From Acidobacteriota bacterium (GTDB lineage Bacteria > Acidobacteriota > Vicinamibacteria > Vicinamibacterales > UBA2999), in NCBI GenBank assembly GCA_030697165.1, contig JAUYQQ010000023.1, positions 1-64,000 of the forward strand: a stretch of DNA of 64,000 bases, given 5' to 3'. The first letter of the stretch is position 1. Every line of letters begins with the position of its first letter. A model generated the notes under the pieces. It did no database searches, was not told the origin of the DNA, and saw nothing but the letters and a program-made list of their open reading frames with translations. Positions 16,955 through 25,996 of the stretch are shown in pieces. A program made the position numbers and the translations under genes.

Positions 16955-19669
16955 TTAGCGCGCGGCGGTGGCTCCCAGCTGCCGCCGCAGCGCGTCGAGC
17001 CAGTGCTGCACCACGACGATGCGCTGGCGGGTGGCGGTGGGAGCGCCGGTACTGCTCGCGGTCGTCACGATCAGGAATCGGCCGTCAGGGGCCACGTCGT
17101 ACCCACGCACACTTGACGACATCTGGCCAATCGGGACGGCGGTTCCGGTAGTGAAGGACGTGCCGGCGATGACCGGCACAGCCGTAAGGGTCGCTCGCAG
17201 CGTCGCGCCAGCCGACTCCACAGCCAGGAAATACAGCTCACGGCCATCTCTCGACCAGCGTGGCACCGCGCCGCCAGATGCCGATACTTGCCACCGGGCT
17301 TGAGCGACCTCCGGAAACGGGCGGACGTAGATCTCGTCACCGCCCGATTCGTTGGATTGGTACGCCAGCCATCGTCCGTCTGGCGACAACACCGCCAGGC
17401 CTTCATCAGCTGACGTCGCCAACAGCGGCTTCGGCTCGAACGGCGACCGGTTCGGAGTGGCCCAGATGTCGAAGCCCCCGGTCTGTCCGCTCATGCTCAG
17501 CAGAAGCCAATCGCCCTTGCGCGAGAACTCGGCGACGGTGCTCAGCCGGTCGAGCTGAAACAGGCTCGCGGACGGAGCACTGCCGTCGGAGGGCTGGCAG
17601 CGCACATCATAGGGACTTTCCCGGTAACACACCCGGCTGCCATCGGCGGTCCATTGCGGATCGGTCGCCGTGCCGCTGGACGTCAACCGCGTGAACGTGC
17701 CACGCCCGATGTCGCCGATCCAGACGTCGGTCTGCGATCGAGACGTACCCATCAGGCGGATGGCCACCCGTTTGCCATCCGGGGATAGGGCGAACGAGCG
17801 CTGCCCCTGAAACTGCGGCCGCGCCGGTAATGCGGTTGGCTCGAGGCCGCCCTGCCGTGTCATCCACGTCAACGTGCTGTCTGCCGCCATGTCGTCCACG
17901 GCATAGGCCAGGCTGCCGGACGGCGACCAGGTCATTTGTGAGGCGCCGGTGAATCCGCCCACCGACGGGAGTACGCCACGCTCCAGCGGTACCGTCGGGC
18001 CTGACGTTTCGCGTTTGCGCGAATCGAACGCGACGGCAAACAGCGCATTCTCGCGCGCGTAGATCAGCAGCCCGCCGGGCAGTGCGCGGCCGTCGGTGCC
18101 CCCTTGGACCAGCGTCGTAAGCGTCCCGCTCGCCAGGTCCTGCACCACGATGTTCGATCCGCTCCAGTCGCGCTCGTTAATCCGCTGCGTGAACAGAACC
18201 GCGCGACCGTCATCCACCAGTTGCGGGGTCTGGATCCATTCGCCGGCGGTCTTGTCGATCGTCATCAGCGTCCGGACCGTGCCGCCGTCGGCCGGCACCT
18301 GGAGGACGGCACGCGCCTGGCCGACCACGATCTGGTCGCCGGTCCACGTCAGTCCGAGCGGATTGTCGATCTCGGCGAGTTGGATGGCGCTGCCGCCGCT
18401 GACCGGGATCTTCTTCAGCGCGCCATTCGACCAGAAGGCAATCCAGGCGCCGTCGGGCGAGAACACGGGTTCTGAAGGGTCCGCATTCGCGGTACCGCCG
18501 ATCAGCGCCGGCGTCAATTCGCTGAACGAATGCAGGTACAGCGCGCGATTGGCGACATAGACCAGGTGCGTGCCGTCGGGCGACAGCGCCAGCACGTGGC
18601 GACCGGCGCGGGTGAACACCTGATCGGCCGGCAGATCGATCGCAAACCTGGTGCTCGGCGGCGCGACCGGTGGGGCTGGCCACCAGCCCCAGGCGACCAG
18701 GCCAGCCACTAGCGCTCCGACGACCGCGCCAGCCAGCACCGGCCCTGGTCCTCGCGACTTCTGCAACGGCGCCGGTGCGACTACCGTCTCGCGTGGCGGG
18801 TCGATCGCGTCGTCACATTCCAGGCGTGCCACCGCCGCATCGGGCATCCGCTTGCGACGGTCCTTTTCCAAGCACCGCCGCAACAGCTTCCGGACCGGTG
18901 CCGGCGTGTCAGGGGGCAGCGCCGACCAATCAGGCTCGTCCTTCAACACCGACGCGATCACGTGCGACACGGTCTCGCCGTCGAATACGCGCTTGCCGGT
19001 CAGCATCTCCAGCAGGACAACTCCAAACGCCCACATGTCCGTGCGCCGATCGACAGGCTTGCCGGCCGCCTGCTCCGGGCTCATGTAGGCGGCGGTGCCG
19101 AGGATCATTCCGGCACCGGTCATCAGCGTTGGTGAGGTGATCGTTGGAGAATGGTCGGCGGGACTAAAGTCCCCTCCTGACGCGGGATCCATGGCCTTGG
19201 CGAGGCCGAAGTCGAGGACCTTGACCGTCCCGTCCGGGCGCAGCTTGATGTTCGCCGGCTTCAAGTCACGGTGGATGATGTTCTGGTCGTGCGCCGCTTC
19301 GAGCGCCTCGGCAATCTGCCGCGCAACCGCCAGTGCTTCATCGAGGGGCACCGGTCCTTGCGCAATGCGGTCGGCCAGCGTGGGACCTTCGACCAGTTCC
19401 ATGACCAGCGCCTTCACGCCGCCACTTTCTTCGAGTCCGTAGATCCCCGCGATGTTCGGGTGATTGAGCGAGGCGAGCACTTCCGCCTCGCGCTGGAAGC
19501 GCGCCAGGCGATCAGGATCGGCCGTCACTGCCACCGGCAATACCTTGAGGGCCACCTGTCGCTTCAGGCGCGAGTCGGTGGCTCGATACACCTCGCCCAT
19601 CCCGCCTTCGCCAATGGAACCAAGAACGTCGTAGGGACCGAGACGGGTGCCTGAGGTGAGCGCTGGCAT
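16955..19669 (-). CDS. Transmembrane Ser/Thr protein kinase with C-terminal PD40 sensor propeller
   Basis: The 904-residue protein has a Hanks-type kinase domain: glycine loop GEGGMGEVY (20-28), Lys42, HRDLKPAN (133-140), DFG (153-155) and APE-like SPEQ (197-200). One membrane segment (VLAGAVVGALVAGLVAWGWW, about 310-330) is followed by an extracytoplasmic PD40/WD-type propeller (LALSPDGTHLVYVAN, FSPDGAWIAFWSNG, LSPDGRWLAYQSNES). All catalytic motifs are intact. The activation loop carries an extra ~10 residues (GGDFSPADHS) encoded by a GGGACT-AA-AGTCCC palindrome, likely a repeat insertion. The gene has a TATACT -10 with a leader of about 9 nt and no ribosome site. Confidence 0.93.
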   Translation of the reverse strand: MPALTSGTRLGPYDVLGSIGEGGMGEVYRATDSRLKRQVALKVLPVAVTADPDRLARFQREAEVLASLNHPNIAGIYGLEESGGVKALVMELVEGPTLADRIAQGPVPLDEALAVARQIAEALEAAHDQNIIHRDLKPANIKLRPDGTVKVLDFGLAKAMDPASGGDFSPADHSPTITSPTLMTGAGMILGTAAYMSPEQAAGKPVDRRTDMWAFGVVLLEMLTGKRVFDGETVSHVIASVLKDEPDWSALPPDTPAPVRKLLRRCLEKDRRKRMPDAAVARLECDDAIDPPRETVVAPAPLQKSRGPGPVLAGAVVGALVAGLVAWGWWPAPPVAPPSTRFAIDLPADQVFTRAGRHVLALSPDGTHLVYVANRALYLHSFSELTPALIGGTANADPSEPVFSPDGAWIAFWSNGALKKIPVSGGSAIQLAEIDNPLGLTWTGDQIVVGQARAVLQVPADGGTVRTLMTIDKTAGEWIQTPQLVDDGRAVLFTQRINERDWSGSNIVVQDLASGTLTTLVQGGTDGRALPGGLLIYARENALFAVAFDSRKRETSGPTVPLERGVLPSVGGFTGASQMTWSPSGSLAYAVDDMAADSTLTWMTRQGGLEPTALPARPQFQGQRSFALSPDGKRVAIRLMGTSRSQTDVWIGDIGRGTFTRLTSSGTATDPQWTADGSRVCYRESPYDVRCQPSDGSAPSASLFQLDRLSTVAEFSRKGDWLLLSMSGQTGGFDIWATPNRSPFEPKPLLATSADEGLAVLSPDGRWLAYQSNESGGDEIYVRPFPEVAQARWQVSASGGAVPRWSRDGRELYFLAVESAGATLRATLTAVPVIAGTSFTTGTAVPIGQMSSSVRGYDVAPDGRFLIVTTASSTGAPTATRQRIVVVQHWLDALRRQLGATAAR
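19160..19173. repeat. GGGACT-AA-AGTCCC palindrome inside the kinase activation loop
   Basis: A perfect 6-bp-arm palindrome, extended by GC-rich flanks, is read in frame as GGDFSP between DFG and SPEQ. It differs from the GTCCG REP-like family elsewhere in the window but shows the same behaviour. Confidence 0.6.
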
Positions 19670-22770: not shown

Positions 22771-23217
22771 CTAGTTGCTGGTGTCGAACTCCGGATCTTC
22801 CGACCACTGGATGGGCGGCGACGCAGCGTTATTGGACGCGACAAACGTCACCTCGTAGCTACCCGGCAACCCGCCGCCGTACACCATGGGCGGAAAGGCA
22901 TACACCGTGAGGTCGCCAAGCACGGCGCCGGTCGCTTCCTGCGACGACAGGCAGAGGAAATTGCCGTTCGCCCCACCTCTCACGAATGGCGTTGCGGTGG
23001 TCTGGTTCGTCAAGGCTAGTTGCGACTCGGTAAACACGGTCGTACCTGTCAGCGTCAGCGGCGACCCGCTCGCGGCCGGATACGCAACCGTGATCGCGAT
23101 GCTATCGCCGCTCTGAAGGACCGGTGCACGACCATTGTCGAATCCGCCATCCAGCTTGCCACCGGTTGCGACCGATCCCGCGGGAATGGTGAAGTTGCAA
23201 GAGTATTGCTGTGGCAT
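22771..23217 (-). CDS. Unknown small protein, paralogue A (WSxDPEFDTSN family)
   Basis: This 148-residue protein is not assigned to any family. It has no signal peptide or membrane segment and looks all-beta, rich in Gly, Thr and Ser. It begins PQQYSCNFTIPAG, has APVL, SPLTLTGTTVF, NFLCLSSQ and PGSYEVTFVAS, and ends WSEDPEFDTSN. The upstream gene on the same strand encodes a diverged copy with the same ending. The ATG at 23217 has GAGGA nine bases upstream. A GTG at 23226 is less likely. Only 20 bp separate the two genes, so they form an operon, divergent from the TPR kinase. Confidence 0.75.
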   Translation of the reverse strand: MPQQYSCNFTIPAGSVATGGKLDGGFDNGRAPVLQSGDSIAITVAYPAASGSPLTLTGTTVFTESQLALTNQTTATPFVRGGANGNFLCLSSQEATGAVLGDLTVYAFPPMVYGGGLPGSYEVTFVASNNAASPPIQWSEDPEFDTSN

Positions 23218-23237
23218 GTTCGTCACTCCTCAGGGGG

Positions 23238-23672
23238 CTAGTTACTGGTGTCGAACTCGGGATCCGCGGACCATTGCGTCGGTGTTGGCGTGTTGGTCCC
23301 GGCCTCGGCAACGAAGGTCAGCTCGTACTTGCCCGCCTGGCCACCGAAGTAAATCAGTCCGGCAAAGTTGTAGGTCGCGCCGCCATTACCGGGCGACGAG
23401 TTCGCCACCTGGGTCAAGAGGCAGCGATAATTGTTGCCGTCCTTGAACGGCGACGGCGCGGACTGACCGGGATCGGCGCCCGCCGCCGGCGAGATCACGA
23501 AGTACCCCGTGAGGCTTGCGGGCGCGCTGCTGGGCGTGCCGGCCCACCGGAGTGACACCTGCAGGACATCCCTGGCACCCAGAACGGGCGCCGAAGCCCC
23601 GAGGCCGTTGCCGGTCAATCGCCCGCCGCGGCCGGCGCCGGGAATGACGTACGAGCACGTGTAAGTGGCCAT
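23238..23672 (-). CDS. Unknown small protein, paralogue B (WSxDPEFDTSN family)
   Basis: This 144-residue protein is a tandem paralogue of the downstream gene. It starts MATYTCSYVIPGAG after an AAGGAGAGG ribosome site and shares APVL, SLTGYFV, YRCLLTQ, AGKYELTFVAE and the C-terminus WSADPEFDTSN. Overall identity to paralogue A is low outside these blocks, so the duplication is old and the C-terminal motif is under constraint. No known domain is recognised. The predicted beta-sandwich could be a structural or binding protein. It lies 113 bp from the divergent TPR kinase. Confidence 0.75.
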   Translation of the reverse strand: MATYTCSYVIPGAGRGGRLTGNGLGASAPVLGARDVLQVSLRWAGTPSSAPASLTGYFVISPAAGADPGQSAPSPFKDGNNYRCLLTQVANSSPGNGGATYNFAGLIYFGGQAGKYELTFVAEAGTNTPTPTQWSADPEFDTSN

Positions 23673-23785
23673 GCCTCTCCTTGTAGAATGCAACGCGCCG
23701 GGAACGCTGGCGTGTCGAACCCGCAGAGTCTACACTCAGCTCAGCCGTAGGGGGAAGCGAAAGGCGTCCCGAGACTTCACACAGC

Positions 23786-25996
23786 ATGATCGGCAGAACC
23801 CTCCGCCAGTACCTCATTACAGGCCGCCTTGGGCAGGGCGGCATGGGAGAGGTCTGGCTGGCGCGGGACACCATCCTCGAGCGCGACGTGGCGCTCAAGG
23901 TGTTGCCGGCCGGCGACACCGACGCGGTGCTGCGCAAGGAACGCTTCTTTCGCGAGGCCCGCGCGGCCTCGGCGCTGAACCACCCGAACATCATCACCAT
24001 TTACGAAATCAATTCCGACCAGGGCATCGACTTCATCGCCATGGAGTACGTCGAGGGCCGCACCCTCGGCGGACTGCTCCAGCAACGCACGATGGCAATC
24101 GACCTGGTGCAACGCTACGCGTTGCAGATCGCCGAAGCGGTTGGGCGGGCGCACCGCGCCGGCATCGTTCACCGCGACCTCAAACCCGGCAACATCATGG
24201 TCACCAACGATGGCCTGGTGAAGGTCCTCGACTTTGGCCTGGCCAAGGTCAGCCATCCGTCGGATGCCTCGGCCGCCACCGACATGGCGACCCAGATGGC
24301 GCTGACGCGCGCGGGCACCACGCTGGGCACGCTCGGCTACATGTCGCCCGAGCAGGCCATCGGCGACCATGTCGATGCGCGGTCGGACGTCTTTTCGTTC
24401 GGCGTCATCCTGTACGAGATGCTCTCGGGAAGGTTGCCGTTCGCGGGCAAGACGCTGTCTGAGGTCCTGCACCAGCTGCATTTCTCGGAACCGCCGCAAC
24501 TCGAGGCGCTGCGACCCGATACCCCGCCGGCGCTGCGGGCGATTTCCGCGCGGGCGCTCGAAAAGAAACCGGAGAACCGGTTTCCCAACATGACCGAGGT
24601 TGCCATAGTGCTCGCTGGCGGCACAGCCGACAGCGCGGCGACGGTGGCCAACTCGTCACCACCGGCGCCGATCGCTCCGGCAGGACGCAGCCGGCGCTGG
24701 CTGGCCATCGCCGTCCTCGTGACCGCGACGATTGCGGGCGGCGCGGTGGCCTGGCGATCGCGTGCGGCCGGGAGCGCCGGCAGCGCCACCTCGGCAACGG
24801 AGGTCGCCAATGAACCCGTCGGCGCCGTCGAGCTCACGCGGAGCGCCGGTGCCTTGCTGGCGCGACCCGATCGTGATGGCAACGCCGATCGCGCGATCAC
24901 GCAACTGGAGCGAGTGCTCACCGAAGACCCCACGTCGGCAATCGCGCATGCACACCTGGCCTCCGCGTATCTCCGCAAGCAACAGACCAATCCCGATCCT
25001 CAGTGGATGAAGCTCGCGCGCGAGAACGCCCAGCGCGCCATCGCCTTGAATTCCGACCTCGCAGCCGGGCACGTCGCCATGGGCTTTGTCCTGCTCGAAG
25101 CCGCTGAGCGACCTGAAGCCGCGAACGCGTTCCGCCGGGCCGCCGACCTCGACCCGGTCAACCCGTTCCCGCATCTTGGGCTCGCACTGAACTCCGCGGC
25201 TCAAAATTTGGACCGGGAGGCCGAAGCGTCGTTCCTCCGGGCCATCCAACTCGGACCACAGGAGTGGCGTCCGCAAGGCGAGTTCGCGCAGTTTCATTTC
25301 AGGCGCGCGCGATACGCCGAGGCGGTCACGCATTGGGAGGCCGCGCTGAAACTGACGCCGGACAACGCGGTGGTGATGCGCAACCTGGGCGGTGCGTACT
25401 TCCTGACCGGCCGTCCTGACGAGGCTGCCTCAATTCTGCAACGGGCCCTCGAGATCCGTCCGGCGGCGGCGACCTACACCAATCTCGGCACCATTCGGTT
25501 CTTCCAGGGCCGTTACACCGACGCCGTGGCGGCCTTCGAAAAGGCCGTCGAGCTCAGCGCCAACAGCCACCTGTACTGGGGCAATCTTGGCGACGGCTAT
25601 CGCTGGGCGCCAGGCCGGCGCCCCGACGCGCCGGCGGCCTATCGGCGCGCGAGCGAACTGATTCAGCAGCAGATGGCCAAGAAGCAAGGCGACGCTGACC
25701 TTGAAAGCCGGCACGCCGTCTATCTCGTGAAGTTGGGAGACACGTCAGGCGCACTCAAAACGGTCGCAGGAGTCGTCGCCCGACCGAACCTGACGGCGCA
25801 GGTGCTGTTTCGGACGACGGTGGTTTTTGAATTGGGGGGCGCGCGCGACCTCGCACTCACAAGCCTTCGCCGCGCGTTGGAGGCTGGTTACGCCGTGGCC
25901 GACGTCGCCAGCGACCCGGAATTGACGGCCCTCCGCACGGATGCGCGCTATCACCGCCTGATCGACTCGGTGGCCCACCCGCCCGCCAAGCCCTAA
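23786..25996 (+). CDS. Transmembrane Ser/Thr protein kinase with TPR repeats
   Basis: The 736-residue protein has an N-terminal kinase domain: GQGGMGEVW (16-24), Lys38, HRDLKPGN (about 128-135), DFG (about 150) and SPEQ. One membrane helix (WLAIAVLVTATIAGGAVAW, about 303-322) precedes a C-terminal TPR array (AITQLERVLTEDPTSAIAHAHLASAYLRK; AVTHWEAALKLTPDNAVVMRNLGGAYFLTGRPDEAASILQRALEI; AVAAFEKAVELSANSHLYWGNLGDGYRW). The kinase appears active and the TPRs probably bind protein partners. A TACACT -10 lies about 50 bp upstream. Its closest neighbours are the divergent unknown paralogue pair, which are candidate partners by position only. Confidence 0.93.
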   Translation: MIGRTLRQYLITGRLGQGGMGEVWLARDTILERDVALKVLPAGDTDAVLRKERFFREARAASALNHPNIITIYEINSDQGIDFIAMEYVEGRTLGGLLQQRTMAIDLVQRYALQIAEAVGRAHRAGIVHRDLKPGNIMVTNDGLVKVLDFGLAKVSHPSDASAATDMATQMALTRAGTTLGTLGYMSPEQAIGDHVDARSDVFSFGVILYEMLSGRLPFAGKTLSEVLHQLHFSEPPQLEALRPDTPPALRAISARALEKKPENRFPNMTEVAIVLAGGTADSAATVANSSPPAPIAPAGRSRRWLAIAVLVTATIAGGAVAWRSRAAGSAGSATSATEVANEPVGAVELTRSAGALLARPDRDGNADRAITQLERVLTEDPTSAIAHAHLASAYLRKQQTNPDPQWMKLARENAQRAIALNSDLAAGHVAMGFVLLEAAERPEAANAFRRAADLDPVNPFPHLGLALNSAAQNLDREAEASFLRAIQLGPQEWRPQGEFAQFHFRRARYAEAVTHWEAALKLTPDNAVVMRNLGGAYFLTGRPDEAASILQRALEIRPAAATYTNLGTIRFFQGRYTDAVAAFEKAVELSANSHLYWGNLGDGYRWAPGRRPDAPAAYRRASELIQQQMAKKQGDADLESRHAVYLVKLGDTSGALKTVAGVVARPNLTAQVLFRTTVVFELGGARDLALTSLRRALEAGYAVADVASDPELTALRTDARYHRLIDSVAHPPAKP

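Follow-up and report, generated by a model that had tools for sequence, protein, structure and literature searches.

Kinases that are encoded together with accessory proteins are a known kind of arrangement. The closest described case is the PknG-GlnX-GlnH system of actinobacteria in which a serine/threonine (Ser/Thr) kinase with tetratricopeptide repeats (TPR) is encoded beside conserved accessory proteins, and the signal is proposed to pass via the TPR domain (PMC8546545). Here we describe two small genes, A and B, that lie divergent from the gene of a TPR Ser/Thr kinase (the window kinase) in a stretch of 64,000 nucleotides of an Acidobacteriota bacterium (order Vicinamibacterales; assembly GCA_030697165.1, contig JAUYQQ010000023.1, positions 1 to 64,000), hereafter the window. 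We compare them with a class of small proteins encoded beside TPR kinases, for which no describing paper was found in the open-licence literature and which looks undescribed. On balance we lean towards reading A and B as partners of the kinase encoded divergently from them, either as extremely diverged members of this class or as proteins of other origin that share its tail.

A and B are tandem paralogues of 144 and 148 amino acids (aa), as the initial annotation, which gave both a length of about 145 residues, had proposed. They share 37% identity in BLASTP (expectation value, E, 2e-25) and 39% in a search of the whole genome (E 2.8e-19). The identity is concentrated at the C-terminus, with 20 of the last 32 alignment columns identical against 35 of the 118 others, and both proteins end in the common motif WS[AE]DPEFDTSN that had already been pointed out; both have QW before the ending, and two cysteines are also conserved between them. 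The stop of A and the start of B are separated by 20 bp on the same strand and ribosome-binding-like sequences precede both start codons (AAGGAGAGGC-ATG for A and GAGGAGTGACGAAC-ATG for B), thus the pair looks like an operon, and the G+C content at third codon positions is raised in both genes (0.83 in A, 0.75 in B). The remark that neither protein has a signal peptide agrees with a simple hydropathy scan (as distinct from a signal-peptide predictor), in which no hydrophobic N-terminus was found; the best 19-residue hydropathy within the first 45 residues is 0.91 for A and 0.26 for B. They also resemble no recognised family, since neither one matched Pfam at E up to 1, NCBIfam and PHROGs at E up to 5, or PADLOC at E up to 0.01. 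No chain of the PDB was matched by A alone, a five-row A/B profile gave a single match at E 1.1, and the search for homology to a characterised family, by which the annotation could have been overturned, found no characterised homologue.

On the other side of the 113-bp intergenic region stands the TPR Ser/Thr kinase that had been recognised there, with a match to Pfam Pkinase (2e-45) and to several TPR models (Table 1). In this kinase the 19-residue stretch of highest hydrophobicity begins at residue 305 and is taken to be a membrane helix. No sigma-70-like site was found inside the 113-bp region, and a promoter and terminator scan gave nothing useful.

Table 1. Features of the A/B and kinase locus, in positions of the window.
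Feature	Position	Strand	Description
Gene A	23238..23672 (CDS 23241-23672, stop down to 23238)	-	144 aa, ends QWSADPEFDTSN
Gene B	22771..23217 (CDS 22774-23217, stop down to 22771)	-	148 aa, ends QWSEDPEFDTSN
C-terminal block of A	23241..23336	-	last 32 residues, ...GKYELTFVAE...QWSADPEFDTSN
C-terminal block of B	22774..22872	-	last 33 residues, ...GSYEVTFVAS...QWSEDPEFDTSN; the like of this block survives in the G007 and G011 remnants
Divergent intergenic region A/kinase	23673..23785	.	113 bp; possible shared promoter region
Ser/Thr kinase with TPR	23786..25996	+	736 aa; N-terminal kinase domain, hydrophobic stretch, C-terminal TPR repeats

The class of small proteins was found through the TPR half of the window kinase. 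With residues 281-736 as a query, 23 loci were detected in 16 of the 43 genomes of the bacterial family, one of them the window's own; the other 22 matched at E 1e-31 or better, the best being 37% identical. A small open reading frame (ORF) lies directly downstream and on the same strand in 21 of these 22 loci and is absent in L100, the ORFs and their starts having been chosen by eye, and for four of the 21 (L081, L085, L092, and L093) the stretch retrieved showed no kinase domain. No class gene directly follows the window kinase, and A and B occupy its divergent side. The class proteins are diverse, and many of them end in G-x-Y-K-Y-x-V followed by DP[ED][ILV][DE] and a few residues; L085 is without the DP ending. 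By reading, several N-termini are lipoprotein-like or membrane-like and others have a lysine-rich start. Among 35 class proteins the only invariant or nearly invariant columns beyond the first methionine are one tyrosine of YKY and the D and P of DP, and a strict ending, DP[ED][FILVM][DE] within eight residues of the end, is present in 18 of them (12 of 21 and 6 of 14). The best library matches among the 21 proteins were Pfam AMPK1_CBM, for two members at E 0.0033, and NCBIfam Rv3852_fam, for one member at E 0.0054; L087 matched PADLOC at E 0.0056, and L101 had no match in plasmids.

Adjacency of these 21 proteins to kinases by itself proves little, because they were picked beside kinases. A profile of the 21 (A5) was run, by sequence alone, on 396 genomes of the phylum and gave 27 matches in 24 genomes, 16 of them outside the training set. 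Eleven of the 16 adjoin a Ser/Thr kinase (L135, L136, L138, L139, L141, L143, L144, L145, L146, L147, and L150). The window genome carries approximately 44 kinases in 5.4 Mb (46 matches, with pieces merged by hand), from which a few per cent of genes would be expected to adjoin one by chance; if that chance is assumed to be 3-5% and the loci are treated as independent, the probability of 11 in 16 is between 7e-14 and 2e-11. A second profile with 35 rows (A6) was run on 193 genomes of the taxonomic class and gave 43 matches in 39 genomes, 19 of them new. Fifteen of these lie within 400 bp of a kinase, two (L263, L268) stand next to a TPR half with its kinase domain beyond the contig end or in a different frame, one (L269) adjoins an 89-residue TPR remnant, and one (L278) is at a contig end. 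Summed over both searches, 26 of the 35 new loci adjoin a kinase, two a TPR half and one a remnant, five adjoin none of these, and one lies at the contig end; these numbers contain same-genus pairs that are not independent (L143/L145, L144/L147, L137/L139, L268/L272, L270/L274, and L279/L280), and the new loci of A6 may include orthologues of those of A5. The conserved neighbourhood proposed as a check in the annotation is therefore found for the wider class, with 28 of 35 new loci adjoining a kinase or TPR half, and for the homologues of A and B themselves it comes down to a single decayed locus.

Some class loci have an architecture of their own. In the window's genome (G000), two tandem TPR kinases are each followed by their own class protein (L105:4323-10375, minus strand), one lipoprotein-like and the other without a hydrophobic N-terminus. 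In genome G004 a kinase-domain piece runs into a class-protein tail (L148:6022-6288, plus strand; GRFKYTVSAYGVVEDPEVEMPEGN), as if both had been lost by one deletion. In G005 one frame joins the hydrophobic stretch and TPR half of a kinase to a class domain ending in EDPELEFPEGS (L263:5533-7149, minus strand), with the upstream kinase domain in another frame; the frame may have been fused naturally, or it may reflect decay of the locus or a faulty assembly.

A and B occupy a position comparable to that of the class proteins and carry the same ending. Their strongly conserved C-terminus, which had been singled out at the outset, is confirmed as conserved but is not exclusive to this pair, as it resembles the ending of the wider unnamed class. 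If A and B were a pair of orphans confined to their lineage, with a role of their own, both the neighbourhood and the DPE ending would be coincidental. We consider this unlikely. The strict ending is present in A and B, and among 4,369 other ORFs (six frames, 100 aa or longer, many of them not genes) from a set of fetched loci it did not occur once. The TPR half of the window kinase also falls into a group with those of four class-linked kinases in a tree built from such halves (support 96/98). Within the window genome, three of the six TPR kinases (two class loci plus A/B) have a class ending or class-profile match next to them; the other kinases have no such neighbour within the fetched stretches, bar a relaxed match in an ORF of 72 aa that was put down to chance. 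Three of six against 0 of 37 gives a Fisher P of 0.0016, where the 37 were counted by hand and leave out the 72-aa ORF match. Two kinases close to the window's in their TPR half are adjoined by the class proteins L141:5644-5958 and L281:5561-5770, the latter cut by the contig end; both have a more cupredoxin-like look by eye (FFPDRSAFG and SSPEVII in L141).

Almost no relatives of A and B were found, which is what an orphan pair would lead one to expect. Profile searches covered 60 genomes of relatives, 43 of the bacterial family, 396 of the phylum, and 162 of the order, in overlapping sets, and in the phylum and order sets only some of the first-look candidates from each genome were scored. 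They yielded two relatives, both decayed, in G007 (same genus) and G011 (same bacterial family), and no further full copy in the window genome. A DNA pattern for W..DPEFDT occurred at 61 loci in genome contigs of 84,980 species, with a family-like C-terminus only in L032 and L074, which by their identical peptides are the remnants of G007 (contig C12) and G011 (contig C81), respectively; the remaining 59 encode other proteins or other frames, and neither of two loci in viral contigs was family-like. Relatives of A in viral contigs and of the A/B profile A1 in genome contigs were not confirmed, and B in plasmids and A in phages had no match. Weak matches were set aside (L004, L008-L012, L223-L230, and L232), among them L010 and L012, which read as larger proteins of another kind, and L008, which overlies a gene read as elongation-factor-like. 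The G007 remnant keeps 31 N-terminal and 29 C-terminal residues, with the middle deleted, and directly adjoins the last 61 residues of this same kinase (64% identical) and the aldolase gene that comes next in the window as well (82% identical), in the order and orientation of the window. The kinase and the A/B family gene were thus damaged at one locus, which speaks against an orphan pair. The G011 remnant consists of approximately 35 C-terminal residues. As A and B are almost unique, kinase linkage can be checked on their own homologues at G007 only; what had been put forward as an undescribed family is thus an undescribed pair with a real kinase linkage, and this linkage is conserved only at the level of the wider class.

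A number of observations weigh against A and B as kinase partners allied to the class. Against the class profile they score 0.3 bits (A) and 0.9 bits (B), which is not significant similarity; among 3,000 shuffles, 95 did at least as well as A and 45 as B, and among the 1,275 unrelated ORFs that received a score the numbers were 209 and 110. Comparison of A/B with the class by hhalign gave probabilities of 0.4, 3.4, and 4.1% (P 0.14, 0.013, and 0.01). With the tail removed, mean pairwise z values of 0.24 and 0.17 are about those of reversed A and B (0.21 and 0.10), with single pairs nevertheless reaching z 4.2 (L147). Because sequence homology was not demonstrated by any test run, A and B are not filed as class members, and the lack of profile similarity also favours the orphan pair. 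The class proteins lie mostly directly downstream of their kinase and A and B lie divergent from theirs, an arrangement with one precedent in the class, L274. In the TPR-half tree, which lends weak support, 26 of the 30 other rows are class-linked, the rows having been selected because they resemble the window kinase or came from a class match, and the class label is not clustered beyond chance (109 of 500 shuffles were as low). A tree of kinase domains contradicts it: there the window kinase and L197, which is a TPR kinase with no class protein beside it, form a pair (Shimodaira-Hasegawa-like approximate likelihood ratio test, SH-aLRT, 98), which again fits an orphan pair. In G011 the nearest kinase sequence is approximately 6 kb from the remnant. 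Five of the 16 new A5 loci are without an adjacent kinase: L137, L142, and L149 have none in the stretch, L140 has one approximately 5 kb away, and L148 is the decayed fusion. Finally, the single membrane helix should place the TPR half of the kinase outside the cytoplasm, but A and B have no signal peptide.

The last point was followed in the class by hydropathy, and no simple compartment rule linking class proteins and TPR halves emerged. Many class proteins are like A and B in having no hydrophobic N-terminus. Ten class proteins among the 26 rows listed have an N-terminal stretch of hydropathy at least 1.6, and after the kinase domain a stretch of at least 1.8 occurs in 20 of the 21 kinases that were seen, the other being a partial frame. 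The fused frame in L263 hints that TPR half and class domain may be on the same side of the membrane, at a locus which has a break in the kinase frame and could be decayed or mis-assembled. The lack of a hydrophobic N-terminus in A and B, by which they would probably share the compartment of the kinase domain, also suits another explanation: that they are substrates or scaffold-bound effectors of the kinase instead of regulators, cytosolic proteins whose acidic, Thr- and Ser-bearing tail DPEFDTSN would be phosphorylated by the neighbouring kinase. The tail is indeed the best conserved part of the pair and offers T and S in an acidic setting, but in most class tails the DP[ED] segment is not immediately followed by T or S, and we regard a substrate role as improbable.

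Returning to A and B as partners, the following scenario may be proposed. In the bacterial family, a kinase composed of a kinase domain, one predicted membrane helix, and TPR repeats is almost always followed by the gene of a small, probably all-beta protein. The conserved C-terminal end of this protein consists of a predicted strand, G-x-Y-x-Y-x-V, and a last segment, DP[ED]-hydrophobic-[DE]. We infer that this protein would bind its kinase and set its activity, as a sensing or regulatory subunit, and that the conserved terminal segment would complete the fold, dock on the kinase, or both. A and B, if they are diverged members of the class, would have been duplicated in tandem on the divergent side. 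The view of the initial annotation that their tail may be a docking or assembly element is plausible, and the tail might just as well form the final strand in a beta sandwich.

The AlphaFold2 model of A, from a two-row alignment, has a mean predicted local distance difference test (pLDDT) value of 55, and that of B, from a five-row alignment, a mean pLDDT of 62. This low-confidence model of B consists mostly of strands, and the conserved block near the end would form the last two, 120-128 and 143-145. Foldseek gave no match at E <= 0.001, and its top rows (TEAD, E 0.03), like the top row of VIA-align (Integrator complex, Z 8.0), were distrusted as known folds for a model of pLDDT 62. Structural matches are mainly ordinary beta sandwiches, with auracyanin A at Z 6.8 and azurin at Z 6.5, in the range of common sandwiches. 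These strands and matches would suit the idea that the conserved tail is just the last beta strand of a common sandwich and that A/B and the class have come to resemble each other by structural convergence, with no docking involved. Such convergence leaves unexplained why A/B and the class occur beside kinases with related TPR halves, and we rate it as rather unlikely, with a slightly better chance than a substrate role or an orphan pair. The copper site of cupredoxins consists of two histidines, one cysteine, and usually a methionine; neither A nor B contains a histidine and a copper site is excluded. A resemblance to the PixA/AidA inclusion-body family is conceivable.

In the surroundings of the locus, PADLOC models for defence systems matched only the kinase, mostly as PD-T4-6 models over the kinase domain; this was taken as the common kinase fold and A/B were rejected as a defence locus. 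A second Ser/Thr kinase is encoded at 16955-19669 on the minus strand of the window. It has no TPR match, its C-terminal half is of the kind that we name TolB-like, common in the window genome, and no class gene was found beside it. Elsewhere in the same genome, one strand of contig C13 carries nine kinase-domain matches within 25 kb (98.7-123.3 kb), most of them TolB-like.

A bolder form of the partner reading can be entertained tentatively, and it has a lesser chance of being right than the reading that we lean towards: the class would be a phylum-wide, unnamed group of dedicated partner subunits of TPR Ser/Thr kinases with the terminal segment as docking element, and A and B would have kept or acquired this tail on an otherwise unrecognisable body. 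Dozens of Ser/Thr kinases can be present in a single genome of this group, and a partner that is nearly constant within the bacterial family and has a defined ending is a testable candidate for what the TPR kinases sense or respond to. In A and B one would see how much divergence such a partner allows when its end is retained.

Among known systems, the cupredoxins (plastocyanin, azurin, and auracyanin) show a weak fold likeness to the low-confidence B model, in the range of chance or common folds; plastocyanin against the class profile gives E 1.5, also in the range of chance, and in contrast to A and B these proteins have copper-ligand histidines. The unnamed class beside TPR kinases is like A and B in size, in a kinase neighbour with a related TPR half, in the C-terminal G-x-Y...DP[ED]-hydrophobic-acidic ending and, by eye, in a similar apparent order of strands. 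It is unlike them in having no significant sequence similarity outside the ending, and A and B for their part differ from the class by their tandem order, their divergence from the kinase, the QW before the ending, and the two shared cysteines. With PknG-GlnX-GlnH we claim no likeness of the proteins, and what A and B have in common with it is the principle of the arrangement.
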